A DNA stretch of 64,000 nucleotides, from positions 21,222,450-21,286,449 of the forward strand of contig NC_134029.1 in NCBI RefSeq assembly GCF_964204645.1, given 5' to 3'. The position numbers and the translations under genes were made by a program. Within the stretch, counting starts at the first letter, position 1. The number at the start of each line of letters is the position of its first letter. The notes below the pieces were generated by a model that ran no database searches, was not told where the DNA came from, and saw only the letters and a program-made list of their open reading frames with translations. The DNA comes from Tubulanus polymorphus (taxonomy: Eukaryota > Nemertea > Palaeonemertea > Tubulaniformes > Tubulanidae). Shown piece after piece: positions 17,478 to 64,000 of the stretch.

Positions 17478-19400
17478 ACTGGCGGATCGAAATCCTCATT
17501 TCTTTTGTCACTCGCTACATTTTTCACACAATATTTAAAAAGAAAATTGGCTTCATAGCACGAAAGTGCTACAGCCATTTTTCATATATATGATATCTAT
17601 CTGTCATGTCATCCGGAGCACTTCATATTCACTGTGATGCAATTCACTATAATTTAATGCATACGCATCAATAGTAACACTATGCAGCGAATTTTGTCGT
17701 AGATAAAAGCCTAGGAAATATAAATATCAGCGATTAAAAGGTTAATGGTACTCAAACGCTCATATGGATTATTGAACATTAATTACCAGGTATTCAAAAC
17801 GGGCCGTTTACAGTCATATATACATTATATATACGCATATATACATTTAAATAGAATCATTATTTCTAAAATCCTCGACTGATAAAACACGAATAAAACT
17901 TCTGCTGATTTCTGAATATTTTCCTTTGTTCGGCTAAGTGCTGCATTGGAACTTAACAATGGCTTTTAACGTTTTTTTTTTGTTGGTATTTTCCGCAAAT
18001 CTGTATTGACTGTAAAAAAGACTAGTCCACAAAGTAACGAGATAGAACCTGGTTGTGAGTTCCACTGTAGTCAGTCACTGACTTCATTAGACCCCTGTAG
18101 ATATTCTTGGGATGTTTATAGAATATCTATGATGCATTTAGTTCAATGGAAAGGAATTGAAATTTGACTCTGTTGAATGCCATGATAGTCACATGCGTGG
18201 TAGGATAACATTTTTGGATTATCATATGCAAACGAATGACGGAACACCATAACTGTGTCAGTGTATTTATTAATAAGATTTACATCAGGTATGAATTAAA
18301 ACTATACGTACGTCGTGATCATCAATTCACATTAACCCGAACGAATCGAGGTGGATAATAACGTACATAATAGAACGATGTTGAAACGCTTCAATGAAAT
18401 CATACTTGTGACAGAAATCTCAGAATTCCGGAAATTTTCTGCATTAAAAAAACAGAAGTCTGGAAAATAGAAAATTTCTGCAGAAAAATATATTAACTCT
18501 TTAAGAGAGGGCGCTGTCGCAGAATTTCGGAATTTTCTGATTGATGTTCTTGGAGCCAAGTATTGATGATTCTGAGGCGGTGATTTTGTTGCCATTCACT
18601 ATCGCAATTTTGCGCGCACGTTGAATCCGCCATCTAACGATACAATAACCATGGTCTTTTAACAGTCTCACAGTTGCTTTCAATCCGTAGTCAACTTCAG
18701 TAATGATTCGAATTTTCACAAGGTCCCGCAGTTCGAATTAATTTTTTATGATTTCAAAATTTGCTCGTCGATCGATTTTTATAAGTTCTTGTCTTGCATC
18801 GTTATCGTTAACTAGCGTAATTTGAACCTTCTGAATATTTCAGTTTTTAGACGTGAAGTTAATCATATATACTTAATTCGACGAACTGAAAAGATATTCA
18901 CCAGCGCGCATACACGCGTCGATTCTGGAACCATCTGAACGGATGTTTGTAACACTGACTTAGGTTTGAATGTTCTCCGTGTTTGGTCTAAAGCTAGGAG
19001 AAGCAGGACAACATTACCTATAAATGCTGGTTTTTCGTAACAAGGCTTTCGGGTTACAACTTGTTTAGTTGCTCAGTTAATCATTAACAGAACTCAATGG
19101 GAACCGAATGGTAAATTTTTGAGAATAATGGCAAAACTATAGTGCCACGGGCATTGCCGCAAGAAGATTTGCTTCACGTTCGAGTCCGAGATGCAAAACG
19201 AATAGGGGTACATTTTTTCCCTTTTTCCTTTCGTGAGTTTCTCGTTTGTGCTGACTTCTATAATGACGAAACGTTACTTGATATGATGCCAAATTAGCGT
19301 TTACAAAAATACGCTGTATATTGGCATGAGTTGCGGTGATTAAATAGGTGAAAAATTGATTCAAAGAGATGCGGCAAATCGGAGTGACATTTCAGTGAGC

Positions 19401-20384
19401 ATGGACGACAGTTCCGCTGCACGGTTCCGGCAAAATGCAACCGGTATGATTGAACCGTTAAGGTACCCACCGACTTGGTTCCAACAATTGAAGATCGGTG
19501 TAGTTTATGTAGTCCTACCGGTGATTTGCTTCCTGGGAAGTATCGGGAATACTCTGGCTTTATGTGTACTCGTAGCCCCGTTCTATAGGACAACATCTAC
19601 CGGTGTTTACATGATCGCTTTGGAGGTTTTCGATCTTTATGTTGTGGCCGGTACTATTCCTGTCGCGTTCGTACGAATTGTCTTTCGTAACGAACTACTC
19701 AACACCCCGTTATGCATGGTGTATATATTTACAAATATTTCAGGTAATTGTTTATCGAATTTGACTCTCGCTTTGATGAGCATAGATCGAATGATTGTCG
19801 TCGTTCTCCCGTTGAAAGCGGCACAAATTTGCACCCCGAAAAAAGCGAAAATATGTCTGATTATACTATTCCTGTTTCAAATGACCAAAGTATCTGTGAA
19901 AACATATTTTACGGAAATGAAGACCGACGAAAAAGGTGCCAAATCGTGCGTGGCATTCGATCAGTTCGGGTACATTTCCATAGTTTTTATCAAGCAATTT
20001 CACGTATTACAAGAAGTGACATTACCGGTATCTGTGATAGTGATAACCAACATCATAATTAGTATAATAATGGTTAAAAAATCGAGGATCCGCACAAAAA
20101 TAATCGCACAGAATAATAATAATAGCGAAGATTCTGTTTTCCTCAAGATGATGCTCGCTATAACGAGTACATTTCTTATTTTGCATATACCACGCTTTAT
20201 CTATTTTACTATTCCGAGTTACTCCGATCCCTTGGTGCAAGCCGCGTTCTATTGGGTCGCCTTGTCATTCACTAACGCGAATTCGGCCGTCAATTTCTAT
20301 CTGTACTGTTTAAGTTCGGCGCGTTTTAAAACATCGGTTAAGTTGATTCTCAGAAAAATATATAATATTTTATTTTTCACTTAA
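19401..20384 (+). CDS. Rhodopsin-class GPCR 1 (peptide-receptor-like, orphan)
   Basis: Intronless, 327 aa from the first ATG (19401); an upstream in-frame TTG at 19356 is not a credible start. Seven hydrophobic segments are visible. TM1 has GSIGNTLALCVL, TM2 the conserved Asp in ALEVFDLY, TM3 ends in IDRMIVVVLPLKA (DRM in place of DRY), TM5 begins LPVSVIVITN, TM6 has LILHIPRF without the usual Trp, and TM7 has NANSAVNFYLY in place of NPxxY, a form common in invertebrate peptide and chemosensory receptors. The N-terminus has an N-glycosylation site (NAT). Cysteines before TM3 and in the second extracellular loop (AKSC) could form the usual disulfide. Its tandem copy lies 1.2 kb downstream. The ligand is unknown; a neuropeptide or environmental peptide is only a guess. 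Confidence 0.9.
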   Translation: MDDSSAARFRQNATGMIEPLRYPPTWFQQLKIGVVYVVLPVICFLGSIGNTLALCVLVAPFYRTTSTGVYMIALEVFDLYVVAGTIPVAFVRIVFRNELLNTPLCMVYIFTNISGNCLSNLTLALMSIDRMIVVVLPLKAAQICTPKKAKICLIILFLFQMTKVSVKTYFTEMKTDEKGAKSCVAFDQFGYISIVFIKQFHVLQEVTLPVSVIVITNIIISIIMVKKSRIRTKIIAQNNNNSEDSVFLKMMLAITSTFLILHIPRFIYFTIPSYSDPLVQAAFYWVALSFTNANSAVNFYLYCLSSARFKTSVKLILRKIYNILFFT

Positions 20385-21596
20385 ATACAGCAATGGAATG
20401 AAAATATAAACGCAGAGTTTAAATCAATAAGTGATAATGCAGTCACAGAGTTCATAGGCTGTAACAACTCTGGACCAAGCAAAGTGGTGACTGTATCCAA
20501 ATATGCGAATGGTAATATTGATGGGATGGTTTAATGTTCTTTGATGCCATTTCTTTGCTTCTTCTAAAACACAATTTGAAGAAGCAATTTGATCATGAGC
20601 GAGGAAATAATTTTATTGAATTCGAAATTTTCATATTCGCTCTTGCAAATTACTACGTATATATACTTAATATATTCAAAACATATTGCAGCCATGTATG
20701 GAATTTGTCAGAGCAAAAGAAGAATTGTACGCGATAGCGTAAAACATACGTATATACATGCCAGACAATGGTATCTGCTAGAATGGAGGTAAACGAATGA
20801 ATCGCAAGACATTTACAAAAGTCCTGATTAGAGAAAATGAATAGACCTATATTGTCATTATCAAATGACGGTTATAACGCTATATGTCCATGAAAATAGA
20901 ATTAATTTTGGTGCAGTCGTTTCCTTGCTGTGGTATGGTTCAATTTTAGTTTCCACCATAGGTTTGATTAGTCCAGATGTGATTTATTTCTATTCTGCCG
21001 AACTATCTTGTGGAGCGTTTAAGATTCACGTTAGATCGCTTTTTCTCTTCTCAATTTATCGTGAATCGGTTTAAAAAGTTGGGTCTATTCGAGCAAATCA
21101 CAGATCAAATACAGATAATCATTTTAACGATGTTCAACAGACACTAAAATATTCGATGATCAAGAAAGGTAAATAATTTTGCATTAAGAACACCGATTCG
21201 AAAGGATTACCTGTTATTTTGAAATTTTCTCACATGTAATTAATTGATCTGATAAACATATACATGTTCCGTACATAAAATAACGGTACTATAGGTTTTT
21301 AACAACACAGAATCATTTCCATGATATAGTTTCTAGACTTATTTTCTCTGCATTTCTAACATCAATTGAACCTGATTCAAAACTCCAGGTTCGATTACTT
21401 CAAAGCTAAGTCCTCCATTATACTACTATGTAAGTTTCTCATATTTACTGCGTATGAATAATAAGTATAGATACGCTACTGGGCTCGAAATTCGATTCGC
21501 CGCATAATATTACCTCATTATAAATTCTACGCGAGAATGTATATATATTTACTACGAGAAAAATCGAAGTCGCGAGAGTCGAATTTCTAACTTAGC
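20385..21596 (+). other. Spacer between the two GPCR genes
   Basis: About 1.2 kb, AT-rich. It holds the 3' end of GPCR 1 and presumably the promoter of GPCR 2. Open frames of 60-70 codons (20534-20792, 20865-21074) look random. No clear duplicated flank of GPCR 1 was seen, so the duplicated segment seems limited to the coding region. Confidence 0.5.
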
Positions 21597-22562
21597 ATGA
21601 AAAACATTTCTACAGCATGCTTGCAACTGAACACGACTGGTTTGATCGACGCGGCAACATCATCGGAGTATCCGCTTTGGTTCCGGCAGCTGAAGATCGG
21701 TGTAGTTTATGTAGTCCTACCGGTGATTTGCTTCCTGGGAAGTATCGGGAATACTCTGGCTTTATGTGTACTCGTAGCCCCGTTCTATAGGACAACATCT
21801 ACCGGTGTTTACATGATCGCTTTGGAGGTTTTCGATCTTTATGTTGTGGCCGGTACTATTCCTGTCGCGTTCGTACGAATTGTCTTTCGTAACGAACTAC
21901 TCAACACCCCGTTATGCATGGTGTATATATTAACAAATATTTCAGGTAATTGTCTATCGAATTTGACTCTCGCTTTGATGAACATAGATCGAATGATTGT
22001 CGTCGTTTTCCCGTTGAAAGCGGCACAAATTTGCACGCCGAAAAAAGCGAAAATATGTCTGATCATTCTTCTCCTGTTTCAAATGACGAGGGTTTCGATG
22101 ATAGCATATTTCATTGAAATGGAAACCAACGAAAGATGCGCCAAATCGTGCGCAGTGTTAGCTCAATTTGGTGAAATACTCAGATTTGTAAACAAGCAAT
22201 TTCACGTATTACAAGAAGTGACATTACCGGTATCTGTGATCGTGATAACCAACATCATAATTACCGTTATACTGATTAAACAATCAAGGATCCGCACAAA
22301 AATCATTGCACAAAATAATAATAGCGAAGATTCTGTTTTCTTCAAAATGATGCTCTCTATAACGAGTACATTTCTTATTTTGCATATACCACGCTTTATC
22401 TATTTTACTATTCCGAGTTACTCCGATTCCTTGGTGCAAGCCGCGTTCTATTGGGTCGCCTTGTCATTCACTAACGCAAATTCGGCCGTCAATTTCTATC
22501 TGTACTGTTTAAGTTCGGCACGTTTTAAAAGATCGGTGGACCTAATTCTTAGAAATTCATAA
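21597..22562 (+). CDS. Rhodopsin-class GPCR 2, tandem paralogue of GPCR 1
   Basis: Intronless, 321 aa, ATG at 21597. Same motifs as GPCR 1: GSIGNTLALCVL, ALEVFDLY, IDRMIVVVFPLKA, LILHIPRF, NANSAVNFYLY. The N-terminus differs completely and carries two N-glycosylation sites (NIS, NTT). From TM1 into TM3 (21693-21931) the DNA is identical to GPCR 1, synonymous sites included. The end of TM4 and the second extracellular loop differ at about 20 of 45 residues, and similarity is high again from TM5 to TM7. It ends sooner after TM7 (LILRNS). The ligand pocket seems to have diverged while the scaffold was kept identical by recent duplication or gene conversion. Confidence 0.9.
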   Translation: MKNISTACLQLNTTGLIDAATSSEYPLWFRQLKIGVVYVVLPVICFLGSIGNTLALCVLVAPFYRTTSTGVYMIALEVFDLYVVAGTIPVAFVRIVFRNELLNTPLCMVYILTNISGNCLSNLTLALMNIDRMIVVVFPLKAAQICTPKKAKICLIILLLFQMTRVSMIAYFIEMETNERCAKSCAVLAQFGEILRFVNKQFHVLQEVTLPVSVIVITNIIITVILIKQSRIRTKIIAQNNNSEDSVFFKMMLSITSTFLILHIPRFIYFTIPSYSDSLVQAAFYWVALSFTNANSAVNFYLYCLSSARFKRSVDLILRNS

Positions 22563-23244
22563 GCGGTAACATATGTATTAAATTGAATCAGATTCATGGC
22601 TAAATGTGTTCTTGTTGACCAATCTAGGTACCGAATATTTGACACTGCAATAAAGCTTGGCCCTGAATGACAGAAGAAATAAACTGAAAATAAAAAAGAT
22701 TTTAGTTTTCTCACGCGTAAAAATACAAATTTAATAATCATTTCATATACACAAACATATTTTCATAATAAATGATATTATTTGTACATGGGATTCATTG
22801 GCACGAAAAGTAGTAAGATGGCGCAACAAAGCTCTACAAGGCAGGTAATGATATTCCGGTAAAATGGATGCGAAAGGAAGAACTTCGGAAAATCCTTTTA
22901 AAGGAAAATATATAGAATCCTATACTCGATGAAATCGAATGTCACATTTATAAGTCGTTAAAAACAATGTTGTATATGCTGGAATCAATGCTATATGTGG
23001 TACATTGAAATTTTCCGAATGAAATTGGATTATCGTCTCATCCAAATCGCATTAGTCTAGTAGTACGGATACCTCCTGGCTTTCAACCCGCAGGTGGCCT
23101 CAGGTTTCCCGGAGTGGGAATCTATACTTTTGTTGATAATCGGATACACAAACCTAACAATAACATTATACATTATTTAGCACCATAAATCACTAATAAC
23201 ATAAACCTGATCTTAATATACCACTAATATACAATATTTCTCTA
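22563..23244. other. Intergenic, convergent 3' ends of GPCR 2 and the second iGluR gene
   Basis: AT-rich, with no coding frame I can support. It should contain the 3' UTRs of both flanking genes. Confidence 0.5.
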
Positions 23245-23463
23245 CTATACCAAACTCTCTTGGCGACTGCTTAACGGAGTTTTGGGGTCTTCTTCGATCA
23301 AGTCGATAGATGGCGTGTTGCCACTTTCTGGTGAGGCTAGTGGCGCTAACTGGGAAGTATTACTGCCGTAGCTTCGCAGCCCGTTTAGATCTTTTACCCC
23401 AATTTCCTCCCAATTATTCGATGGACTTCGGCTTCCATCATACACAACATTGTTCTTTTGTCA
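23245..23463 (-). other. In-frame TGA plus 71-codon open extension ending in a PDZ ligand
   Basis: In the last iGluR exon, M4 and the basic segment MRRWRKRSSTA are followed by TGA (context GCT TGA CAA). The frame then runs 71 codons to TAG at 23247-23245. The extension is polar and acidic (NNWEEIGVKDLNG, SIDLIEEDPKT) like a receptor tail, and its last residues, ESLV, fit the class I PDZ-binding rule (S/T-x-hydrophobic). It could be programmed readthrough, a CGA-to-TGA allele in this haplotype, a sequencing error, or a recent loss. Confidence 0.6.
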
Positions 23464-26400
23464 AGCGGTCGAGCTCCTCTTTCTCCATCTGCGCATACAG
23501 GGCGTAAATTCGCATATGAATAGTAATATGGCCAGAACGACACCACCAAGCAGGACGAAAAATACACCGGCAACATTCACTAATTTCAGTTCAGTAGTTT
23601 CGTCATCAGATGAAGAATCTTTGCTACATTTTGATGATCTCCACCATCTATAATAAAAAGACAACAAGAAAATAGATTATGAATCAGTGGAGAGCCTGAG
23701 GCGATGACAATGCCAACGCACACAACGCTCGGAAAGAGGAGACAGAAACTGTTTCCGAGCGTTTCGTGTGTCGTGTGCGTTGGGCTTAACTATCTGCCTT
23801 TATACTAGAGCATGACCAGTACTAACTTGTGTTCTAGTTCACCAAGTCTTCCAGAATCACTAAGGTTCAAGATAGCCATTGTAAGTTGCTCGCGGTATGG
23901 AGCTCCGACAGGTAAAGCGATACCAAATCCTTTAGTATTGTCGAATTCCGGACCGATCGCCATCAGTTTACAGTTCTGCGAAACTTCGTAATCGATTACA
24001 GTACTGTCCCAGAGAAAAGCGTAATTCCCCTCGAGGACCCGAGCTAAACCTGCCGATGAATTCAACACCATATCTTCTTTAATCGTATTCATGTGAACGT
24101 ACATTTTATTAAACTGTTCTATAGACGTATATTTGAGGAAGTTGAGGACGCCACTGTTCTCTACGGAGCCGTATCTGACAGTCGTCTGATAAGCGAGATC
24201 TGTAACAGACGATATGGGCGCTTGAATCTGACGGATGGTAAGAAATGCGGCCAAATTGGCCGTATACGACGACACGAGGATCAGCGCGAAAAACCACCAC
24301 GCGCTTGTTAAAATTCGTCCCGGTATCGTCATCGGAGTCGATTCGGTGCTGCCCCCTACAATCGCGCCAAATACGAACCAGAAACTCTCGTACCAATCGA
24401 AAAATACAGCCCCTTCATCGCGAACTGTGCGACATTTATTTTCAAAAATGTATTCGAGTACGGCGACTAGTACCACAGACAACATCACACAGAACCACAC
24501 CAACCCATGGAACGGTTTCAGAAACTGTAGATACGACATTTCCGGTGGGATTTTCTTCATGATGACCGATATTCCTCGAGTTTTGAACGGTTTAGTGAAA
24601 TCTATCGCTTGTTCGCGTTCAGCGTTGATACTAAGCGGAGCGACAGACATGGTAGCATTCTGAAATGATAAATGATTAAATACATGCTAAAAATCAAATG
24701 AAATAATTCCAAATTCGGTTCTCATACCCCGCTTAGTAGTTGTCTGACGATTCCGTTCCATTCGCCAAATTTGTTTTTCGCCCCATACTGGCCGTCCGGT
24801 ACTTCATATAACTCATAACTGAAACCCATATTGCGACTGATTTCTTCAATTAGATCAATGCAGTATCCTTTCCAGCGGCTGTTACCTTTCAATTCATTAA
24901 ACCGATGTCTTCTCATTACGAAGGGCGGTTCCTGAACAAAAGAAAAACCCACAAAAAAAGATGTAGTTTTTATTGTGTGTATGACCGAATTGATTCCAAT
25001 TTTCAAAATCATTATAAAGGCATTTGATCGAACCAATGGAAGATCATAGATCACTTTAATTTTAGAAATGCATTTCTCAGGACGACCAATTACACCGTCT
25101 TTGTCGTTGGACAATCTCATCAACCAGCTACTTCATGTCCTCGCCCCAATCTTGGCACTGGTATCTTGATACTTATCTTTATTTTCTTGATACTAATACT
25201 TATTTCACGGGTGTACTTATGAGGGATTTTATTCACGAGTGTTCAGGTCGCCCAAACCTTATCTTTCTTTAGTTCTCATCACGTTAATCCATTTACACGG
25301 ACTTCGGTGCGATTGCCTGCGAGATCACCGATTTACACACAACATCAACCCCTTCATGAATAAAACATGTTACCTGTATAATGACGACCTTGGCAACGCT
25401 TTTTCCTAATGTGGCTTCCGTCAGATCTGGGACTATATGCGTGAATTGAAGACGCTTCTCGAACATAGTGGCATTTGAGCACCAACGAGCACTCTGAAAT
25501 ATTTTTGAAAATATAGATTATACAAACAGCATCTTACTCAGCACACTCAGAATCTTACCTGATTAGAATATGATGCATAGATACGACGCGGCTTGACGTT
25601 TACTCACGTTCAGAATCGTGTCTTACCTGAAATGCTTTGGTTGACTCGAGATTCGTTATACCCAACGTGAAATTCACTCTTCTTCCCTGACTATCAAATT
25701 GAATATTTCCACCTTTGCCTATGTAATGATTCTGTAACGAAATAATGCGCTGAGATTGATAACAATCGTATACGACACGAAGAGTAAATGCAAATGCGAT
25801 AGACTCGCTGAAGCCGTTTTCATTAGGGTCGCTAACATCTTAGATAATAAAGACTATATAAGTGCCGCTACTATCATCCTGACGATCATGAGAAACCTGG
25901 CTAAACTAACCGTGGAAAGTTGATCGTTGACATCATTAGCGACCAGGTCCCCGTTCCAACCTATCATTGCCATACCAATACTAGCCAACATCGTCGATAT
26001 ATCAGAAAATATAACAGCTTTCAGATTGCTCGGGCGTTGGCCAGAAGCGATAGTGTCGAATAGGGTTACTTGAGAAACATTCGGTTTTATATGTTGGAAT
26101 TTGTCGTATCCGATGTTTTCAAATCCCTGGATAGAAATATTTCGTGATTATTCTAATAATTTCAATATCTTCAATCGTGTATTTTTTCATGTCGATGTCA
26201 ATCAATACTTACTGGATTCAACGTTATCCATCGATTATTTCGTCCCAAAATTGATAGATATCTGGCCTGAAAGATGTTAAAACGATTATCAACGTCGGTT
26301 TTATGCTCCACCGGTTGCGTGTGTTTAGATCGCGACCAGTTCCACTGGTAGCCAATCGTGTTAGAACGATATGTGGCGTATGGGCGATAGCCAAAACTCA

Positions 26401-29400
26401 GGGCGGATCCAAGGCGAGGGTGTAGGAAGTGCACATCCCCTAAAATATCTAGTTACCCAATGATTTTAAGGGGGATTGAAAAATATTGATACTAGAATAT
26501 CAACTGGTACTTAGAAATTCATAAGCTTGCTCTCTGTACTTCCAAAATGAAGTAATGTTTCCCGATGATCGGATGCCCTTTTCATCATATGCTCTATTTT
26601 GGGCTCCTCTCTGAATGAGACCCTAGATCCGCCACTGAAATCGAACGTTGAACTCCAAAGAATCAAAAAAAAGATTAAGAGATTGATACCTCTTTTAGAA
26701 TTATCTGTATGAGCGTCGGGTCAACGGCCAACACGTAATGATCGATATCGTGATCTGCTGCTGCGGTACCGAATGTTTGCCGTACAGTCAACACACTGAC
26801 ATTACCTCTTAGGCGCCATACATTCATCGATACCCACGATTTAAGCACAAACTGTTGACTGATTTCCGATCCTGAAAAAATACCAGTCATTCGTTCATTT
26901 CATCTTAAAGCAACCTAAAAGAAATCTGCTTATCAACCGCCCGGACAAAGTTTATATGAACCAGTTTCAGTGACAAGAAAATCTTGGTATTGATGCTTAT
27001 TCTTGGTCCAATTTCATAAACAGCGAAATACATAAATTTCTTCTAGATTTTATGTTTCTTAGCACTACGTTTTCCTGAAAATTCTATCATTTTATGATTA
27101 TGATATGATGGGTATTCTAACTATTAGGCATAGTTATTCAATTTATGGGTCATACGTAGTTGCACCAAGAATGTTCCATGCTGGATTGGTTTCCGGCAGG
27201 CATATCTTCCTTGCATCTTTTGTTGACTCGACTCGCAGTTACACCGGTAACGATGTCATAAAATCTAATAAATGTCTAGTTTTTGGTATGGTATCCATGG
27301 ATACAAATTACATTCAATCAGGCATCACATGTAGGGCATATTCACAGATTCCACAATAGGTAACCAGGGGCGAATTACTGCCCTCTGTCAATCAGTCAAA
27401 TCTACTAAAAAATCTAAGTTGGAACCAAATCATTTCTCACATAAATTTGAATTTACGAAAATTACGATATTCTATTTACGAAACGCTACAGAAATAACTC
27501 TTTTGAAGATATCAAAGATCTAGTGTTAACCATCTTAAGAAAACGGATAGATGTTTATAGCATATTTCAAAGGAGTAGACTTTTTATCATAATATTCAGC
27601 ATAATTTTTCTTGAGTGACCTTCAGGCTGTAGATATCAAACGCACCGATAAATTGGTATAGTCAATGGAACGGAATCTTTATGAGCTCTGGGTACCATAA
27701 ACGGAGAGACGAACTCTCGTAAATCAAGCCGTCTTACCGTCGATAAAGTGCTTAAGCACGCAGAAGGCTTTATTATCGATAGGTTCAGTGGCAAGGCAGG
27801 CAATCTACGAAATAAACTTTAATGTTTGATCAGGAGCAAAAATTCCATCAAAGATTAAGCATTTACAACGATTTTTATGATCTCGAAATGTAACATTATA
27901 ACTATTGAAGTGCTCGAGCTAAGTGAATCATCTAAGACTTTCGTCGAACGTAATAAAAAAGATGAAAGCAGTTTTTGTGTTTTAAAAATTACATACTAAA
28001 ACTAGTTACGTATATACGGTATAAAACATGATCAAAAGCATTGTGTAAACACTCATTTCCTAAATAAATTCACGGTAACTATCTGTAAGCTACAGAACGT
28101 AGAAAATAATGTGTTGCATTTTGCTTTTTATGTATTTGTGATGTAAATTCATAGCGAAATGAAGAATAGTTTTATAGTGAATTCGAAATTCGACGTTTGA
28201 ACAATAAGTTTGTTGAATTCAATTTTTTCCGCGAATATTTCTATAGACAAAGCCCGTTTCTACGTCATTTGGGATTTTGCGGTTGTTGAGTACACGCTGG
28301 GATATTGCTCGATTCAAGTCACTGCAGTGATTTATACAGATATAAACGGTGTAATAAGCCATAAACAAAAGGTCGGTAACCTTCATTAGCAAAATAACGA
28401 TCGTCGGCTACATCAAAATGAATTCCCTTATCTTCAGAAGGCTTATGCTCTATTCAAAAATATGGTTGAATGAAATCATTGCGAAGATTTATTGGTTCAT
28501 CTATCATAGAATGCTCCCCGATGAGGAATGGCTTAATGGAAATTATATCTTATTTAACAAAATTATGGAAATCACGTAGAAATAAATCAGTTCTTTTAAT
28601 CGTGTAAAGCGCAGCATTCTCTTCAATAAACATTTTATGCGTGTATTTTGTATATATTCCTGATTTTTTCATTTTCATTGGTGTTTTTTATGGGGGATTT
28701 TCTCGCAAAGGGATCCTCGTATGCCAGGGTTCGATTGCCTCCCACTTGAGCTCGGGTGGGAGGCAACCGAATCCTGGCTTGGGCCCCATGCTTGGAGTAC
28801 TCCGAGATCCTGGCAAGCGAGGATGGCAAAGGGGGATTAAAGTTGAACCGAATCTAGGTGTTTCTAACCCACTCGATTGAGAAGCGTAACATGAGTTCAC
28901 ACTCACCCAAGGTTTTGTCGTAAACCAACGCAAATCGCTGAATATCGTAAGCTTCGACCAAGTCGATCATAGCCTGGCCAAAATCTTCCGGTTGAGGTAA
29001 AAAACAGAACTGATACGCGCCCAAACATCTGGACAACGATATCGTCATGTACGGTATCTTCAAAGATTCAGTGACGATCAGAATAGTCGCATCTTCCGGT
29101 GCTATCACTAGAGCAACTTTCTGCGACTTCAGGATATTTTGGACTGAAATAGAAAATGTTATTGTAGTTCTGCAAACAAAAAATGTAAGGTTCATTAAAG
29201 CTCCATATTAGCTTAGACCTATAAAGACTATATCAGAGACTGCACAAGTAAGAACTTCGAACCGTTGTGGAATATTAAGGCCATTGAGCCAGTATAAATT
29301 GGTAACAAAGAAGAAAAAGAAATTCATTACTCGAGGTTCAATAAACTTTCGTGTTTGCATATCTTAACATGCGCCGACATTTTCACGACCGATTTTCTAT

Positions 29401-31105
29401 CGGACCGTTTAGATTAAGCCTTTTAATACGTCGTCTAAATTCAAAACAGGCATATCTTGATTTAGTGGTTTGACGAAATAGATGATAAGGGGACATAGAA
29501 ATAATGCGCCTCAATTTAAAACCTATCAAAACACAATGGCTCGAATAACGGAATTTAACGTATCGCTAAACAGAATAACGAATATCTTTTTTGATCAAAT
29601 TGTCCATTCGAATCAACGGACACTGATACGATGACGTCATCACCAGGAATACCCCGAACATGGAGATCAAGTAACTGTCATGATTTTACCGTGAAAGCTA
29701 TGAAATTTATAATCATCATTAAGCAACATTATTGATGAACATGTACACATACCCTCTGTCAGTCTCTGATATTCTTTCGATTTATCAGTAGCTGGATCGG
29801 GTAATTCTATATACGTGATAGTAATGGCACCACTTTCCCGAGTTTCGGTACGTGCCGTCTCCTTATCACTGGCCAATACACCTAGAAAATTAACGTAGAC
29901 GATTTATTTTGGTAATCTTTCATCTTGTTATGTCATTCAATCGTTCTTTCGGGGGTCCGGGTTGAGGATTTTTGATGCGGAAAACCATCGCAGTCGCAAT
30001 CGAATGTGCCGTACTTGGTTGGATTTCGAAAGCGACCTTGTCCTGTTTCACACTGTCACTGTCTGATTGATATTAACTATATCCTTGTTTATGGTCATTT
30101 AGAGACGTTTCACTGGATATGCAATAGGCGGTGGGATTTAATTACTTAGTCAGTGGTGGTTTTTTATGATTATGACCAGACTGTGCTATTATATTGTGCG
30201 TATCAGCATAGCAAAAGCATTGACGCATTGACTGTGGCCGCGATCGAGCTCGTTGATCTTATGATAACCACCACTAGAGCAGCATTATGTCGAAAGAAAC
30301 ATGGCAACTCAAATAGCTTTATTTCTCAAAAAGAGGGTCTTCTTCGTGTCTGACTGAAAAAAATGAATATATAAGACATCGATGCATATGTCTGACAAAA
30401 GGGAGGATACGGATCGGTTAATTGAGACAGAAAATATGGAAGTTCCAGTTTCAATCGCTGAAGCTCTACTACGTGTACAGCCATTTTTTACATTCATTGG
30501 GCTTATACTACTCCTCGGCCTTCAAGGCTGAAATTCTCTTAATTTCCCGGTAGTGCTGATAATTAAACAATGATAGATTACAAAAGGTCGTTGGAGTTCC
30601 AATTTTCGCTTGGTGATGGTATCAAGCATTTTCATCAAGTCATCAAGGTCACTGGTCATATCGCGCACAAATGGTATATTTGTGATGTGATATGAATAAC
30701 AAGTATGGACATTATCTGCCCAGGGGGCGGATTGCCAATAGCATACAATTAATCTACATACATCTTCAACTTCACTAACGATTTGCGCTTTGAATGTCAA
30801 TGCAGCATTTACTGTCCTAGAAATTATCTCCAAAAGATGTACATTCTACGACAGAAAATCGTTCATATTCACCATCGCTGCCGGCTCAGACAAAATGTAA
30901 TTTTTCCCATTTAACAAATTGCTTTCAACTATTTCCAATAATTCATATTTCAATATGGTATGTATCTATTATCATTCATCATCTTCACGACTGAATGGAA
31001 AAAATGTTTCATTTACGTACCAACTTTCACTCCAGGAGCTACAGCCTCTTGCACCAGTACCAGTACCCATAAAAACACCGTCACTACGAGGTGTGCACGC
31101 TTCAT
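23245..31105 (-). CDS. Ionotropic glutamate receptor, glycine-type pocket (GluN1/epsilon-like), in-frame TGA before the tail
   Basis: Eleven exons, minus strand: 31021-31105 (ATG 31105), 29753-29881, 28907-29143, 26690-26871, 26213-26266, 25911-26126, 25627-25731, 25374-25493, 24728-24931, 23827-24659, 23245-23647. All junctions keep phase, giving 783 aa to a TGA at 23463-23461. Signal peptide 1-22; amino-terminal domain to about 360; binding core S1 from EPPFVM (377) with Arg459 in INAERE; M1 about 497-516; pore loop with Gly546-Gly547 at the Q/R site; SYTANLAAFLT 575-585; S2 with Trp661-Asp662 (FLWDS); cysteines 674 and 729 as the usual disulfide; M4 about 745-767. Trp-Asp-Ser and INAER match the glycine-binding GluN1 pocket better than the glutamate pocket of AMPA/kainate subunits. 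After the TGA the same frame stays open for 71 codons and ends ESLV. A plasma-membrane cation channel subunit is inferred. Confidence 0.9.
23711..23787. mobile_element. MITE-like palindromic element, family 1, copy D
   Basis: About 77 bp inside the last intron of the second iGluR gene. Left end TGCCAACGCACACAACGCTC; right end GTCGTGTGCGTTGGGCTTA. Central inverted blocks CTCGGAAA/TTTCCGAG make it nearly a full palindrome. Confidence 0.7.
26872..31020 (-). other. 5' introns of the second iGluR gene
   Basis: Introns 26872-28906, 29144-29752 and 29882-31020. The first contains a small open frame (27105-27359) with no family resemblance. The last contains a 103-codon minus-strand frame (30522-30833) that is not needed by the gene model: exons 31021-31105 and 29753-29881 join directly to give VKVGVLASD, a good first strand of the domain. 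A nested hairpin lies at 28707-28826, just downstream of the exon at 28907-29143 on the minus strand. Confidence 0.6.
28707..28826. repeat. Nested inverted repeat (hairpin) in an iGluR intron
   Basis: The inner arms TTGCCTCCCAC and GTGGGAGGCAA are complementary, and the match extends outward over about 30 bp. An outer pair, ATCCTCGTATGCCAGG and CCTGGCAAGCGAGGAT, encloses it. The block is markedly GC-richer than its surroundings. GGTTCGATTGCC resembles a tRNA B-box, so a SINE-like origin is possible but unproven. Confidence 0.6.
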
Positions 31106-46600: not shown

Positions 46601-49600
46601 GTTGTTTTCGTCGCAAACAGGAAAAACATATGAAAAGGAATTTCCGTTGTGCGCGCTCTTGACGAACTGCTTGTGTATATTTTGTTTACGTTTTCTCTCG
46701 TGAATAACTTTTATTTTTCTAATTCGTCGGCCTGTATTCCGATTAAAAAGGAAGGACCGTGTATAATCGGGCGTTTGTCCGTTAGTCCTCGTTTGCGGAA
46801 ACGTTCGTCTTGAAATGTTGAAATATCTATTCGTTTATGTAAGCGTTTCATTTGTTTATCGAAAAAAATAAAAAACTAAAATGTGACCGTCATTTGACAC
46901 TGCCGAGGGACCTTGATATTAATTACTGAGCGGTCGATGCTGTTTTTCATAATAGGAATGCTGTTTTATGGATTTGACGAACGTTATTTATTTCGAATCG
47001 CTCGAGCGCGATGGAGGAATATGAAAAGTCGTCGTTTTGACAAGATTTACGAGGAACCTGCCCTGGGATTACCTCGACAAAACACAGACGTTTGTATTAT
47101 ACACACAAATATGTTATTCCTTTAGTGCCCTTTGTAAAATCTGTTTCGGATTTGCTAGTATTTATGTAAGTTATCGCGTAGGATTTAAAGACGCGAGTAT
47201 CTTGATGGATTTTTGAGAATTCTAGCGCGGCAAGGATTTAAAACACCTCGCATCGATAGGTTTCGCCAGTAATGAGCGTCAGTTTTACGGGGTAGACGCG
47301 CTTCACACGCAGAATGAAGACGTATGGAGTATTTTACATAACGGCTCAATCGCAAGTTTTATACTTGAAACGGTGAGTGTGTGTGAATCAGTTTATTTTT
47401 CTGGAATCGTTTTTGGTTGTGACAATCGAGGGTGGTAATATATGTATACGCGGAAGTAGGTATTTTTTCGTGTCTTTGTTTGCATATGAATCACATATAA
47501 CGAACAATGTAACGATGCATTTTTATGCAATATGTCGCAATATGCCGGTGGGATTAAACCCAGATTTACGGGAGATTTGCGAAGTATTTACTGTCTGAAA
47601 GGCATTGAATGTATAATAAATATTGGATCAACTAATACCAGTTTTGCTGCACTTCTCTTTCCTTCAGGGATCAACATCTCGCCGGATATATCTGATAAAT
47701 TTCAAAAGATTATTATGAATTCTCCATGAGCATTAAGCTTATTTCTCTGTTCAGTGTGGAGGCAGTGTTCTACGGGAATCAGCGCCATTTAAAAGCCATT
47801 ACCTCTTCAGGATTTCATCTGTGTACTGCTTACACTTTGTCGCCTTAATTTCAAATCCCACAATAATTCAGCCAAAGATGAAAAAGTTCTTAAATAGCAG
47901 TGTATATTGTGTATTTGAGCATAGTTTCAGCTTAAGACTAATAGCCATCATCAGAGTATGGTACTGATGATGGCTTTAAGCAGTACCGTGCACCTGATGA
48001 TGGCTATTAGTCTTTAACCGAAACGTTGCTCAAATATATAATACACTCTTTTACTACAGAACTTGTTAACTATTTTATTTGACGCACGAGCTTTCGCTAC
48101 TAACGTGTAGTAGCTTCATCACTCATTCACCTGATGAAGCTACTATACATTAGTAGCGAAAGCTCGTGCGTCAAATAACAATTATATTTGAGCAATGTTT
48201 GGGTTAAAGACTAATAGCCATCATCAGGTGCACGGTACTGCTTAACCCTTTCAGTGCGTCTACACCGCAGTGCGGTGTATAAATCAGTGATGGATTTTGC
48301 TAGTACACCGCACTGCGGTGTATTGATGTAATTAGTAATTTGTAATTATCTCTATTGAAAAATGGCAGCAAGTGTCAAACATAGTGAAATACTAGTAACT
48401 AACGATACACCGCACTGCGGTGTAGACGCACTATAGTGGTATTTCCATTGTTCAACACACTAGGGTGGAATTTTTTAGAATTTTCAAATTTTCTCCAGCA
48501 CTATAGAGTATTAATTAGTCAGCACTGAAAGGGTTAAGCCATCATCAGTACCATACTCTGGTGATGGCTTATAGTTTTTAAGCCATCATCAGTACCGTAC
48601 TCTCATGATGGCTTATAGTCTTTAAGCCATCATATCAGTACCGTACACCTGATGATGGCTATTAGTCTTAAGCTGAAACTATGCTCAAATATACATAATG
48701 TATACACTTTTATTCATGAACTTTTCATCTTTGCCTGAATTATTGCGGGATTTCTCCACTACATTCATCTTCTCGGCTAAATTTGAATTGTTTTTCTCGA
48801 CTTCCGGTCGAATTCAAACCCTCCATTGTCTTTGCTGTGAGGTCATCACTACCTGGTATTGATTCAAACATTCAAAGATTTCTGGGAACGGTCGATTTTT
48901 TCGCCCTCTCGTCGAAAGCTCATCTTGAACGACTTCCAGTCCGGGCGGCCCGCCGATAAATGAAATAAATGCCTGTACAAACAGCCAGGAAGCAATTGTC
49001 GCTTTACATGTATAAGCAAACTAAACACTTAACAATTGTTAAATATTTGCACATAAATTCCTCTATTAACTGTGTCTCTCTTTTCGGTTTTTACCGTGGC
49101 TCGGCGTGAACTTTTGATTCTGGAATTCTGATAAAAAAAGTTCCGAATTCTCGTTCGAGGTTTCGTTGGCTTCGGCAAATAGTTTCATCGATCCGATCGC
49201 GTTTCAATGATATGCCGTATTCGATTTGAAGTTTACTTTCCGTCAAATTGAAATATTTCGTTTATCGCCCGTGTAAATACGACGACGCGCATCGAATTCA
49301 TCGGATTCGATTCAAATCATGTTTACCGACTGTCAAATATAAAAATCATTAATTTACCCAACATTTCTGAAAACGTATGTTTCGTTGATTTTAGTTCTTT
49401 TTTTTGCTAGAAAAAAAGAACACTACAGATCATTATAGGCCTAGATATGACATGCGAAATATTTGATATGAAATTCTTTCGCTCTTGGACTTAGAGCCTT
49501 TTGCTGCGACGTATGTCACCTCTATCGTCGGATCACATTCCGCGGGTATTCGACTACCTTTTGATTTGATAACGAAAATATTTTCATTTTTGATGGCATT

Positions 49601-52600: not shown

Positions 52601-55600
52601 CCAGCGCAATTTTCTCCTGACATTCGTAAATAAATAACAATTACCCGGTTAGATAGATTGTGCAGACGATATTGTTAAAGATCTTTTCATAATTTGTTTT
52701 GGAATCTACGGAATTCATTCATTCGCTCACTCGCCGGTTTGTGTCGATTCGCTGTCGATTCGCTGTCGAAAGTTTGTAAAAATTCCGATCCCATAGATTC
52801 AGTCTACTGTATCATTTAAACAAATATCTCCAGCGACCGAAAATTCCATTTTACACAAAAGTTGTTTATTATTTTACGTGGATTTATTTCTGAGAATGAG
52901 TTCAGTCGTCTCTAGACCATGTGTTAGCCCCCATATAAAGTGAATAGCGATCTAATTTTGTGATCAGTTCTGTTCATGATGAAGGACCGTCTACATTCAG
53001 TTAGTTGAACTTATCGCTTAATTCATTAATCCTTCATTCATGATTTGTTCCAATATATTTGGGCTGGTTGGCTTGAGTAACGCTGTTAATTACGATTACT
53101 GGAATACCCTTGATTTAAGGTAGGACGATGCTCGAATATTCTGTTAGTTTTTAGAATCCATTTTCTTAAGGAACTGGTGCCCAATAGAGGCACAGTTGTT
53201 CGAGGCCATGTGCGTGATATATGTAATGAATGACGATCCAGCGTTCAGTTCAGTTCATGAAGCAGGATTTCAACTATCGGTTAAATGAACTTGTTGGTTA
53301 AAATTCACTTATGCCTCATTCATAATTTGTTCTGATTTACTTCGGGCTGGTTAGCTTGAGTAAGTCTGTTTGTAAAGGTTACTGAAATTAAGGTAGGAGG
53401 CCGTTGGAATATTCTGAAGATCTGCCGACCTACGCGCCCTTGCGACTGCCAGTGATGCCAGTTCCATTGAGTCGCATGTTCTACTTTCTGCAACGTGATG
53501 CGACCGCCTCTCCCAGTAGCAACCACTGGGCTGCCCTTGCGACTGACCTACACGTTTGCAACCAGTTGCAATCAGTTGCGTCACATCGAAAGTTTACCCA
53601 CGCCCTCCTTCAAACTATTCCAGGGTGACCACTGACCAGAAAAACCTGGAAACTAGGAATTTGAGGAATTTCACAAAAATCCTGGAAAACTCAGGGAATT
53701 TGGATATTGGCCACACGTCTCTTTGTCAATGCACGATTCATAAAAAATGAATAAATTGTAACATTTCAAAGCAGGAAATTTCCAAGATTCATTCTTGGAA
53801 TTTTCTTATATAATATGGAAAACTTTATTGGTAGTGTGGTCAGTCACCCTGTATTCTCACAGGCAGATTGTTCTTTTCGAATATCCATGAATTAGTTCCC
53901 ATTTTCGAAAGTACCTTCGAAATATTTGAAACGAAAATTCAGGATAGGTTTTGACCTCGGTTCACACTAATAAATATCACACACTTTGAAGTTGAATTTT
54001 AATGCATTCCTCGTCATGTTATAAATCGTGAATTATTTCATATCTTACAGTCACACTTTCAGTCGATTGTCGTGTCAATAAATAATAATTACTGCCGCGT
54101 GAATTTAGTTGAAAGCCCCGAACAGCTAGCCGTGACCGAAGTAAAAGTATAGGGAAGGTCAGCCCCCTATACTGACATTCTTCAAGACTTAGGTTGTTCA
54201 TTTATGTGAAAATGCTCGCGGCTTTTCGTTGGTAGATAATTAAGTATGGACTTCGACGAGTAAGTAAGATTATGATTTCACGTATGATAGGGTGAAGACA
54301 CCGACTAAATCATCTCAAGTATTTTTGAACAATTCGGAGCTGAAAATTGACCACAGCGGTTACACATAGCTAGATGTATACAGTTCGCTGTATATATGCT
54401 TCGTCGTCGTTCTACACATGGCTGTGAAACGTAATACGTTTTAGGGATTGATTTTAATAATCGTGTCACAGCTGAATGTGACATCGCCGCCGCCGCCGCC
54501 GCCGTGGTTCGTGTCTTCGTTTATGAATTTGTATATGATTCGAGTGTTTGTTTTGTCGTCGTCCGGCTGTAAAACTGTACAATGTAGATCGAATTAGTTG
54601 AATTAGCATCTGGATCAAGTTCGTGTCGTATTCGGCAGTGGTATCGTGTGCAGGTGCTTGGATTTATATCTTCACTCTGTAGCGGCTGTTGAAGATTTCG
54701 AGTGATACAGCGGTTATCTTACGTGTTTATCTATGCAGGAGTCCGGTTTCCCCTTATCCCCCCCTGGTTCATATCAGAGTTGAATTTTTTTAAATATCTA
54801 CCACGCATGATTGAATAATGTGAGGGGGTGATTTACAGCTAGGGGCAGACAACTGAATTGTTTTTATTTCACTTGATGGCAATGATCAGAGAGCATCGAC
54901 CGAACATTTCACTTGTTTGCCTGTTATGGCATCGATGACAATTTTTTCTGGTTGATTCAATTGCCCTGCCAGCAAATCGCCCGATATTTTTATTTGTCTG
55001 TCAGTGCTGACATATTGTGTTTAGAGATCGTGTGCTATTGGAGGCGTTATTGGTATATCGTGTAATTTATTAAAATGGCTGCCATAAGCTGGTGGCGTAC
55101 GGTGTCGGAAAATGAATTTGATCGCTACCTGTTGACGTTCGTATTTGGGCAAAAAATGCGCTTGTGCGCCCTTAGCTTTAGAGGGTGGCCACTCACCCGC
55201 ATGGAATCAGAAGAAAATCTAGACAAAATTTGGGGAAATACTCGTGGAATTGAATGAATTTTAACATTTTAAACCAAGAAATTCCTTGGATTTATTTGTG
55301 GAATTTTTTGTTATAACAAGGAAAAATCTGGGAAAATTCGGGGAATTTGTAAATTGGACAAAAGTGACGACCCTGAATTCGCTGTTTAGCATCGCTATCA
55401 GTTGTAAAAAGATTCTTGCCCGCCCTTAGCTTTAGTGTTAATGACCTGATGCATAGGTTGATATTTTCTTATGAATTTCACTTGTTTTTCTATTGCAGGT
55501 CGTCGAGGGACCGAATTTCGTGGACCGACCCGATGAAAACTCCTCAGCATCAGCAGCCGTCCGATACAAACAACTCTCATGGATCACAGCAACAGCTCAA

Positions 55601-58600
55601 CAATGATTTCCATCATCACTACCATCAGCCGAGACCGCAGCAGCAGCAGCAGCACCAGCAGCACCGTCGCAGTGATATATACCGTCCAACTTCCGATAAT
55701 TTCCTCGCCAAACGTTTGTCCGCTACTCAACGACACAGCGATTTTTACCGTCCGAGTTTAGACAACTTGGTCGAAACAGTGCACCAGCGCGCCTCGGCTC
55801 GACTGAACGAAACCCGAGGTGGGGGCACCACCGCCAGCGCGAGTACCGATTCGTTAGACAACGTTAACAAAACTACTGCTGAAGACTGTCACATTCCATC
55901 CACGAAATCCGTGCCCGATATTAGTTCATCGTTTCAAAAAAGTAAACATTCGTCCGCAAGCCGAACCGAGGACGGTTCTACGGATAAGGTAGAAACGCGT
56001 TCCCCGATGGAGAGAGGTACTTACCGCGCTTTGAACGTTCATTCCGGATTCGATTTCGCGCCGACGGCTGGCAACGGTAAATTATGGGACCGCGACGATC
56101 CCGTCGAGAAGGAGCGTAAATCGCGACAACGTCAGACGCGAGTTTCGCTCGGTCAGATGGGTTATCGTAAAGTCGAGTTCAATCCGCCCGATTCGAACCG
56201 GCGCGTGAGCAGTTACGAATCGCGCTCGCCCCGCGGCGGCGCCGAACATTTATCGCGATCTAGTCCGAATTTACAACAACGCGAAGACGATACCTGTGAT
56301 AATCCTCCGCCGATACCGCCGCGCGATACCCGTGATACGGTCAACACGCCCGCGACTGTTAGCACCGGTTACGAAAAAGACGATCCGCGCCACGCGCGAT
56401 TCCCTTCGTGGTCGGAGAACCAGCATTTATCGTCATCGGTCGCGGGTTCCGCGTACGCGAAATCGAAACGACGTTCGTTTCAGCCGAACGCGTACGAATT
56501 ACCGCACGAAAGATTATGTAAAAGCGAAGAATACGAACCACGGCGTTCGGTGGAAACGGTGATGAAGAGTTCGCCGCAGCCTCAGTACAAGAGCTCGGTT
56601 CAACGCGCCGTCGTTTCTAAGGTAGAATCTTCGTCCAACGCGCAGCAGCCGCCTAAACTCGGTAAAATGTCCGACGCTTTCGCGACCGCCGCGCTGCGTA
56701 AAGAAGAGACGAAATTGATGGAGACTTTCGAGAAACCGCCGAGCGACTTGTATCCTCGGTTCGACGCTTCGAGCTATCGATATCAACCGAATGAAGCGGA
56801 GGCGAAAATTTCCGATATCAATCGTCTGATTCGAGAGCCGAGTCCGCAGATAAATCCGCCGTCTTTAGAAAGCATGACCGATACCGAGAAGATCGAGGCA
56901 CTGATCGATGAATACGAAGCGCTCAACGAGCGTCCGACGAGTTTAGAGGTCGCGTCGTCGCCCGTTCATAGTCGGCAGTCGTCCCGATCGTCGGGCACCG
57001 CGTCGCCGCTGAAACTAGCGACTAGTTACAGCGTCGTGCGGAGTCCGCTCGAAAAACCGGCGTCGTTCAATTTACCGTGGCCCCCTCCGCCGCCGCTCGA
57101 GCAGCAAGAAGGCGTTCACGGTAATCTGAAAATATTCCGCACGACGCCGAAGGTTTGTTACAACACGAGCACACAGACCGAGAATACATTGGATTCGCCC
57201 GATGGTAAAGATATGGTATTTTACGATTCCGATGTCGGCGTTCACGACGTTCAAACGCAAGTCAATCACGAATTATCGGACGTCGAAGATAACGTCTCCC
57301 GTACGATCGCGGTCGGTACGGACGACGACTCCGTTCTGAATTCGCCGTTCACCGAATCGCCGAGCCGCTCGCGGAGTTCTTACTCGCAATATTCGGAATT
57401 CGGTCAACACAACGCGATCCACGACGTTCGAAATACCGAATTGTTGAACGTCGACTTTCCGCGCGTGAGAGCTTCGCTCGCCGGTCCGGTATCGCACGTC
57501 GGCCAAACCGAGCCGTCGAACGAGTTGCGTAAGTCGGACGGCTATCAACAGTACAGCATGTCGGTCAATCGATTAAACGATACGAACAAGATTCAAGAAA
57601 ACATCCGCGAAAAAAACATCAGCCAATCGAGCAACAGCATTTCGCAACGTAAACAAGATAATACGTTCAACGCCGGGGACGGGACGGCTCTCAGGCAGAT
57701 CCATGACTATAGTATGAGTACGGCGCCGATGTTGCGCAAACTTTCCGAGGAATTCTTCATCCAGCAACAAAACGCCGCGATTCGACAACGACAAAATGAG
57801 AATCTACGCAAATCATGTCAGCAGAACGTCGTTGCCGAAGAACCGGACGGTAATCTGATCGGCTGCGTTAAGAGGAATTCGACGGAGGATATCGAAAATT
57901 TACGAAATAATAACACGGCCGCTGTTGAGGTCGCGGCGGAGCCTACGCACTTACAGCATCATCGACAACACCAACAAAAACTCTCCGAGCAATTACGATT
58001 CGAAGAAATCGAACTTCCGTGGGAAAAATCGAAGAAGCTGAAAAAGGAGAAGAAATACGGAAAAGACGGTGAGAAAAAGAAGAAGACGAATCCGTTCGAC
58101 TTATTTAAGTCGTTCAACAAAAAACTGCGCGCGAATTCGGACTCGGATAAAAAACGGAATTCGTCTCAGTCGAGCGATTCGGATTTTACGTACGGAGCGA
58201 TGAGAAGAACGGACAGCGAGAAGGCGCTTTATCGTAAACACGATGAGGCGCCACCTCCCGGGAAATTGAAGCGAGCGTCGTCGGAAACGTTTCGACCGAT
58301 GAAAGAACGATTGAAATCCGCGAATCGCGACGAAGAAGAGATTCCCGTGTTCAATAGGGAGTCGATTTCGAGTCCGGTTTCGACGAAAACGACGACGCCG
58401 CCGACGAGAGAGACGGAGATGACGCGGGATGAAAGTTTCCGCGCCGAAAAACGTCATTATTCCGACCCGACGAAGGAGAATAAACGCGCGACGTCTTCGC
58501 GCAACGAACCCGACCGACGCCAGTGGTCGGATCCGGCGACGTCCGGTTACGAATCGAACGAAACGCTCGACAGCATCCAGCCGAGTATGAGCAGCTCGCG

Positions 58601-63516: not shown

Positions 63517-64000
63517 GTAAGTGCGAACGTTCCATTCAGTTTTCTCAATTCATAGATTTTCTGTTTTCCGGTAGTTAGAAATTATTGATCTAGGATTCGG
63601 TGCAGTTCATGTTTGAAATTTTGAACGTTTTGAAATGGAAATGGGTCAATTCTAGGCCTTGAGTATCATGGAAAAATGTTGAATGGCATCAGTCATGCTG
63701 ATTACAAGAATGCCTGGAAAATGTTGATTACAGGATTCCTGGCAATTGTATATAAGTCATGGATTCGGAGTCCTTGAAAATCATTAATTAATGAGATAAA
63801 CATTTAGGGCTAGGTCATGAGCACTATGAACCCTGTCAGTGTTTGATTTGCTTTGATTCCGTGAAATATTGAATATTACACATTTGAATTCTCTGTACAT
63901 CTGATCATCGATTATATTATAATCAAAGATGACCACATGCGGTAGATCAGATATGTACATGTCTGATTCTATTAGTTTCGGTAATTACTACAAAGCTAGG
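63517..64000 (+). other. Start of the next Shroom intron
   Basis: The exon ending at 63516 closes with AATAG|GTAAGT in phase 2. The remaining 484 bp are AT-rich with no coding frame. The C-terminal exons, including the expected Rho-kinase-binding domain, lie to the right. Confidence 0.8.

Follow-up and report, generated by a model that had tools for sequence, protein, structure and literature searches.

A candidate leaky UGA stop codon and a possible long-range RNA stem at the end of a predicted glutamate receptor gene

The receptor locus

The stretch of DNA analysed here, the window, spans 64,000 nucleotides and carries on its minus strand a gene that, judged from its predicted product, is an undamaged ionotropic glutamate receptor (iGluR) gene of the AMPA/kainate type (AKDF). 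The marks of this type that are present include the ligand-binding S1/S2 regions, a channel domain with the motif SYTANLAAF, the fourth transmembrane segment (M4), and an intact frame. The features of the gene and of its 3' end are as follows.

23464..31105, minus strand: iGluR gene, from the predicted ATG to the last sense codon before the TGA (12 exons, 815 codons)
31105-31021, 30062-30015, 29881-29753, 29143-28869, minus strand: exons 1-4 (gene model)
28809-28746, 26871-26690, 26126-25911, 25731-25627, minus strand: exons 5-8 (gene model)
25493-25374, 24931-24728, 24659-23827, 23647-23464, minus strand: exons 9-12 (gene model)
23512..23577, minus strand: M4, approximate (GluA2 and GluK1 alignments)
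23461..23463, minus strand: TGA stop codon, context GCU-UGA-CAA (sequence)
23248..23460, minus strand: 71-codon in-frame extension, QKNNVVYDG...RQESLV (sequence and composition)
23248..23259, minus strand: ESLV, a C-terminus of class I PDZ-ligand type (sequence, read by the class I rule)
23245..23247, minus strand: second stop codon, TAG, with a further TAG at 23242-23244

The gene model was obtained by dynamic programming with its start fixed at the signal-peptide ATG (31105) and its end at the TGA, and has GT-AG sites throughout and no internal stops. A complete exon chain emerged only with looser limits on the splice scores and one relaxed donor weight, stricter limits giving none; a pseudogene reading was rejected because under these relaxed settings the model shows no disablement. 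Domain searches place PF00060 on the channel exon (4.8e-29) and PF10613 on the S1 exon (1.1e-21). The channel exon resembles GluK2 (2.5e-61), the M4 exon resembles GluA2 (1.1e-9), and a match to GluK1 covers residues 336-803 of the predicted protein (phmmer, 1.1e-101). The N-terminal exons are less certain than those predicted for the ligand-binding and channel regions; the exon at 29207-28857 gives only a weak match to ANF_receptor (E=0.22), and residue 336 is where the best phmmer alignment starts. Within the 268-Mb assembly (77 contigs) there are 76 Lig_chan matches, and a DNA search in which 40 of 50 candidates were scored found no second copy or haplotig of the gene.

Several other open frames lie in or beside the window. 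On the opposite strand, immediately 3' of the receptor gene, two single-exon frames of rhodopsin-type GPCRs (19344-20384 and 21591-22562, plus strand) form a tandem pair with 83% identity. A paralogous receptor gene on the same chromosome (gene C) is also trailed by two related GPCR frames (L034), which share 60% identity with each other and about 24-26% with the first GPCR frame of the window. A frame of 1302 residues (55377-59285, plus strand) has no Pfam match at E 0.01 and is of low complexity, serine-rich, with a PPPIPPR proline motif; a second frame without a Pfam match (62876-63520, plus strand) contains a PVLPPR run. A further receptor exon (L035, G000:C5:21216450-21222449), on the strand of the window's receptor gene and about 4 kb beyond the left edge of the window, is only 22% identical to that gene.

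The nearest relatives of the receptor found in the genome are members of a tandem array on its chromosome, with channel-exon identities of 46%, 46%, and 37%. A phase-0 GT is found exactly 12 residues past the EF that follows M4 in six of 13 other loci (the chance-level locus L022 being counted among the 13), as would be the case for a conserved donor. This GT is missing from the window gene, whose TGA comes two codons beyond that point. With introns of 53 and 288 nt predicted by eye, the tails of gene A (L010) and gene C (L012) would end in ETTL and NVHI, respectively. These models suggest that PDZ-type ends occur within the paralogue set, but gene A ends in LGDF when its predicted intron is left in place. 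Around the stop codon of the window gene only one in-frame pair of splice sites scores positively (23568 to 23327), and its use would delete most of M4. A spliced transcript that bypasses the TGA had been named beforehand as one of the findings that would refute the original prediction, and appears unlikely on this evidence.

The 3' end of the coding region reads, on the minus strand from 23646 to 23248, WWRSSK, M4, RKRSSTA, TGA, and 71 sense codons, followed by TAG TAG. The arrangement that had first drawn attention to the site, a TGA placed after M4 and RKRSSTA with 71 open codons leading to a TAG, is thus borne out in the sequence and belongs to the last exon of a genuine receptor gene. Class I PDZ ligands follow the rule [ST]-x-hydrophobic-COOH, a pattern that ESLV satisfies at the level of sequence. 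The extension contains no in-frame ATG (three ATG triplets occur in one other frame), and re-initiation was rejected on this ground, and none of six scanned types of poly(A) signal occurs between the TGA and the TAG. The stop codon has the leaky UGA-C context; the full context, UGA-CAA-AAG, matches neither CUAG nor CARYYA. Selenocysteine decoding was rejected, as Rfam gave four matches in 19000-25000 up to E=5, none of them a SECIS element.

Coding character of the extension

The extension is judged very likely to be coding, or to have been so until recently. Its frame-0 composition resembles that of coding DNA and that of the 3' flank does not; the coding signal of frame 0 is clear by a discriminant and narrow by a codon model. 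The discriminant, a home-made one of Z-curve type, was trained on 152 coding and 912 non-coding overlapping windows, and had a cross-validated accuracy of 0.90 with 86% of the windows being non-coding; four open frames taken to be non-coding on visual inspection were left out of the training of the codon model, the gene model, and the discriminant alike. Frame 0 of the extension scores +2.70, the 46th percentile of coding windows and a value reached by 1.3% of non-coding ones; the score is -2.3 in frame 1, -5.1 in frame 2, and -4.8 in two 3' flanks. The discriminant is not sharp on single windows, since a stretch with the genuine M4 that spans the stop (23437-23649) scores -1.2. In the codon model frame 0 narrowly leads the six frames (0.105, the runner-up on the opposite strand having 0.078). 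Its score stands at the 63rd percentile of the coding windows (82 in all), and is reached by 0.8% of the non-coding windows (3114, overlapping) and by 5.8% of those that are open (69). Synonymous codon choice by itself does not discriminate the extension as coding.

The length of the open frame on its own is a 1-2% event. At least 71 open codons follow 170 of the 7206 stops in the window (2.4%, the TGA site included). Of 3000 shuffled sequences each, 35 stayed open when the extension was shuffled by dinucleotides and 5 when the 3' flank was shuffled by letters. An [ST]-x-[VIL] ending is found in 3.7% of in-window segments of at least 20 amino acids (78 of 2113) and in 8 of the 170 of at least 71 amino acids, the extension included. 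Length, frame-0 composition, and motif support the earlier suggestion of a receptor-like tail with a PDZ-type end of class I. Similarity between the extension and two paralogue tails was not significant (shuffle fractions of 0.29 to 0.82), and the sole match inside the extension in a genome search was L022, at the chance level (E=2.4).

A predicted long-range pairing that reaches past the second stop codon

Folding of the RNA close to the stop codon was unremarkable, with short-range z values of 1.31, 0.00, -0.79, 0.05, and -0.41 after the UGA. During a search for double-stranded RNA that might permit editing, made after these negative folds, a predicted stem surfaced that would join the bases after the UGA to the presumed 3'UTR past the TAG. 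Its arms and the candidate poly(A) signal are as follows.

23433..23457, minus strand: 5' arm of the stem, from the 4th base after the UGA (inverted-repeat search, folding)
22960..22984, minus strand: 3' arm of the stem, in the presumed 3'UTR (inverted-repeat search, folding)
22730..22735, minus strand: ATTAAA, a possible poly(A) signal past both arms (signal scan)

A TATAAA, a weaker variant of the poly(A) signal, starts at 22952, also past the 3' arm, and AATAAA is absent from 21000-23700. Of the 25 positions in the two arms (23457-23433 and 22984-22960), 24 can pair as RNA, two of these pairs being G-U. The duplex between the 40 nt after the stop and 448 nt of 3'UTR has an energy of -32.6 kcal/mol, which none of 1000 shuffles equalled (lowest, -32.0), and the same test at six other stops gave -15.2 to -22.7 kcal/mol. 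In a fold of 526 nt the stem is part of both the minimum free energy and the centroid structures (z -2.80), and none of 100 shuffles was as stable. The predicted pair probability of the stem averages 0.91 across four contexts, in an analysis from which arms with simple dinucleotide repeats were dropped.

The background against which the stem is seen is a demanding one. Equally strong duplexes were found at 93 of 4000 random places and at 34 of 1608 sampled places after a TGA, counts from which AT-repeat and dinucleotide-repeat places had been dropped and, for the random sample, the site's own surroundings excluded. The energy of the duplex thus lies only in the top 2.3%, because this DNA is rich in inverted repeats. 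After removal of simple dinucleotide repeats and of runs of A or T, stems pairing at 24 of 25 positions and starting within 10 nt were found for 20 of 6859 TGA triplets, that of the receptor included, and a single cluster of repeats at 47.9-48.7 kb accounts for 11 of these 20. The evidence for the stem is suggestive only, since these 20 triplets have comparable stems. In the cluster itself (47900-48700) long inverted repeats are densely packed, with as many as 25 of 25 bases paired between arms.

The arms of the stem do not look like members of a repeat family, as the stretch around the 3' arm (22760-23240) matches itself alone in the genome and the other matches of the stretch around the 5' arm fall elsewhere. 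Among the matches of the latter, 1501 bases long, one is the stretch itself, two fall on the channel exon, and 38 on an intron repeat (40 of 50 candidates scored). The intron repeat, a hairpin within the final intron of the receptor gene (23713-23783), looks like a family of short inverted-repeat elements, given that 38 of the 40 further DNA matches fall there.

Proposed readthrough, its rivals, and known parallels

The tentative reading, held at a little under an even chance, is that the UGA is a leaky and probably regulated stop, at which stem-aided readthrough of UGA-C would give a minority of receptors a PDZ anchor. Most ribosomes would halt at the UGA and release a receptor with the stub tail RKRSSTA. 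A minority would decode the UGA through a near-cognate tRNA, aided by the following C and by the long-range stem, which would clamp the mRNA directly ahead of the ribosome, at its entry, and which a ribosome reading through would melt. Readthrough would add 71 residues ending in ESLV, and this end may dock on a PDZ scaffold so that the channel is held at synapses. We infer all four of the elements involved, namely readthrough itself, its promotion by the stem, a disordered tail, and binding of ESLV to a PDZ domain. The stronger proposition, that the stem joining the bases after the stop to the 3'UTR past the TAG is what drives readthrough, and so sets at translation the share of receptors that can be anchored at synapses in a non-arthropod animal, is possible and on balance doubtful. 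Readthrough together with the stem accounts for the coding-like open frame, the UGA-C context, the stem, and the lack of access to the extension by splicing or by an ATG. Passages of PMC4132726 describe UGA as the leakiest stop and a 3' C as especially important; the same passages report little readthrough for two structure-bearing candidates, which counts against the stem model. Readthrough at this locus is also disfavored by a context outside CUAG and CARYYA, by the silence of synonymous codon choice, by a tail that shows no detectable similarity to the paralogue tails, and by passages of PMC5100048, which report abundant readthrough only in Pancrustacea. A family of arthropod cuticle proteins was not found in a search of the genome, in which control genomes gave no match either.

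The main rival is a recent nonsense mutation, by which the sequenced haplotype or the species would have lost the tail, the coding look of the extension being that of its recent past; an error in the consensus base of the assembly is a sub-case. This is judged rather unlikely, although it would explain an undamaged gene with a coding-like and motif-bearing extension. The predicted tail of paralogue gene A, ending in the class I-type ETTL, suggests that an anchored tail may be ancestral. In passages of PMC5100048 recent nonsense substitutions are excluded as a false signal of readthrough and estimated at 17 in D. melanogaster, from which it may follow that such alleles outnumber true readthrough cases outside Pancrustacea. 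A nonsense allele leaves unexplained the UGA-C context and the stem pairing at 24 of 25 positions from the 4th base after the UGA, and no alternative haplotype displays a sense codon, the assembly search having found one copy. The original prediction had offered readthrough or an allele of CGA changed to TGA by a CpG transition; both readthrough and a nonsense allele remain candidates, the former gaining from the stop context and the stem, and the CpG form of the latter has little support. The observed-to-expected ratio of CpG is 1.30 in the whole window, 1.19 in its non-coding DNA, and 1.55 in the coding training ORFs, so that CpG is undepleted overall and the idea of a transition is weakened, though the ratio is lower in the last exon (0.99 up to the TAG and 0.94 in the extension, both short stretches). 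The preference for readthrough over a nonsense allele is a matter of judgement, in which frame, context, and stem are weighed against prior rates outside Pancrustacea that favor the nonsense allele.

Ordinary termination, with the UGA as the true end and the 71 codons as 3'UTR that is open by chance or is the relic of an older tail, is improbable. Several observations are compatible with it, among them the 2.4% of window stops followed by an equally long open stretch, the lack of significant similarity to the two paralogue tails and of any genome match beyond that to L022, the uninformative synonymous codon use, and the fact that the site was picked out of 64 kb. Under this explanation it would be unlikely for an open frame, its frame-0 composition, the change of composition at the TAG, and the motif to occur together.

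Recoding of iGluR transcripts by ADAR makes use of long-range duplexes, and a near-perfect duplex of 25 nt from the 4th base after the UGA might likewise act as a switch for A-to-I editing of UGA to UGG (Trp). A G on the 5' side of the edited A is a poor context for ADAR. The target A here would have such a G and would fall outside the helix, and editing is given very little probability. Least credible is alternative splicing that removes the TGA, which would suit the spliced tail usual in this receptor family and the donor position shared by six of the 13 other loci, and which runs against the lack of that GT in the window gene and the cost of the sole positive splice pair to M4.

If the readthrough reading is true, the synaptic anchoring of a receptor would be tuned by ribosomal readthrough rather than by splicing, and the mRNA would hold a long-range switch testable in one reporter assay. 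It would also be a case of structure-driven readthrough outside Pancrustacea, where few are reported according to passages of PMC5100048. Literature on stop-codon readthrough of glutamate receptors and on readthrough with PDZ motifs yielded no such receptor among the titles and beginnings of abstracts listed. What is new in this analysis is the predicted stem pairing the bases after the UGA with the 3'UTR, for which the evidence is, as set out above, suggestive.

Vertebrate AMPA and kainate receptors offer the closest parallel in protein architecture, in that the tail past M4 can carry a PDZ ligand at its end, and the GluA2 alignment runs across the stop position of the receptor described here. 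In vertebrates these tails are chosen through splicing near the corresponding place, whereas the window gene has a stop codon there. For pairing of a stop codon region with a distant 3' segment, a long-range readthrough element with a UAG stop is known from a plant virus. In passages of PMC4132726 such an element is described as pairing with a distant 3' segment, but its stop is UAG and its partner lies >700 nt 3', a longer distance than in the receptor. RNA stems right after a read-through stop are found in the Drosophila genes dfr, hdc, and kel (passages of PMC13170385 and PMC5100048), and in flies a stop-proximal stem drives readthrough of dfr (passages of PMC13170385). The stem-loop of dfr is local, from +9 to +59, whereas the partner arm in the receptor lies about 450 nt downstream, past the TAG. 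In an annelid, Platynereis, neuron-specific readthrough has been suggested for FVa/EFLGa, a non-arthropod neuronal gene that resembles the receptor in having a second open frame without its own Met after the stop, but encodes a secreted neuropeptide precursor and has antibody support (passages of PMC3890597).

The nearest functional analogue is AQP4ex, which makes up about 10% of AQP4 in the mouse CNS and is crucial for AQP4 anchoring (passages of PMC6444679). The extension of AQP4ex has 29 residues and follows a conserved UGA-CUAG, compared with 71 residues and UGA-CAA in the receptor; the PDZ-type end of AQP4, SSV, belongs to the M23 form and not to the extension, and the passages on AQP4ex describe no long-range stem (PMC6444679, PMC4132726). 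The two systems are alike in combining a membrane channel, a UGA-C stop, and a C-terminal extension that alters anchoring in a minority of molecules, as passages of PMC6444679 and PMC4132726 describe for AQP4ex and as is proposed here for the receptor.
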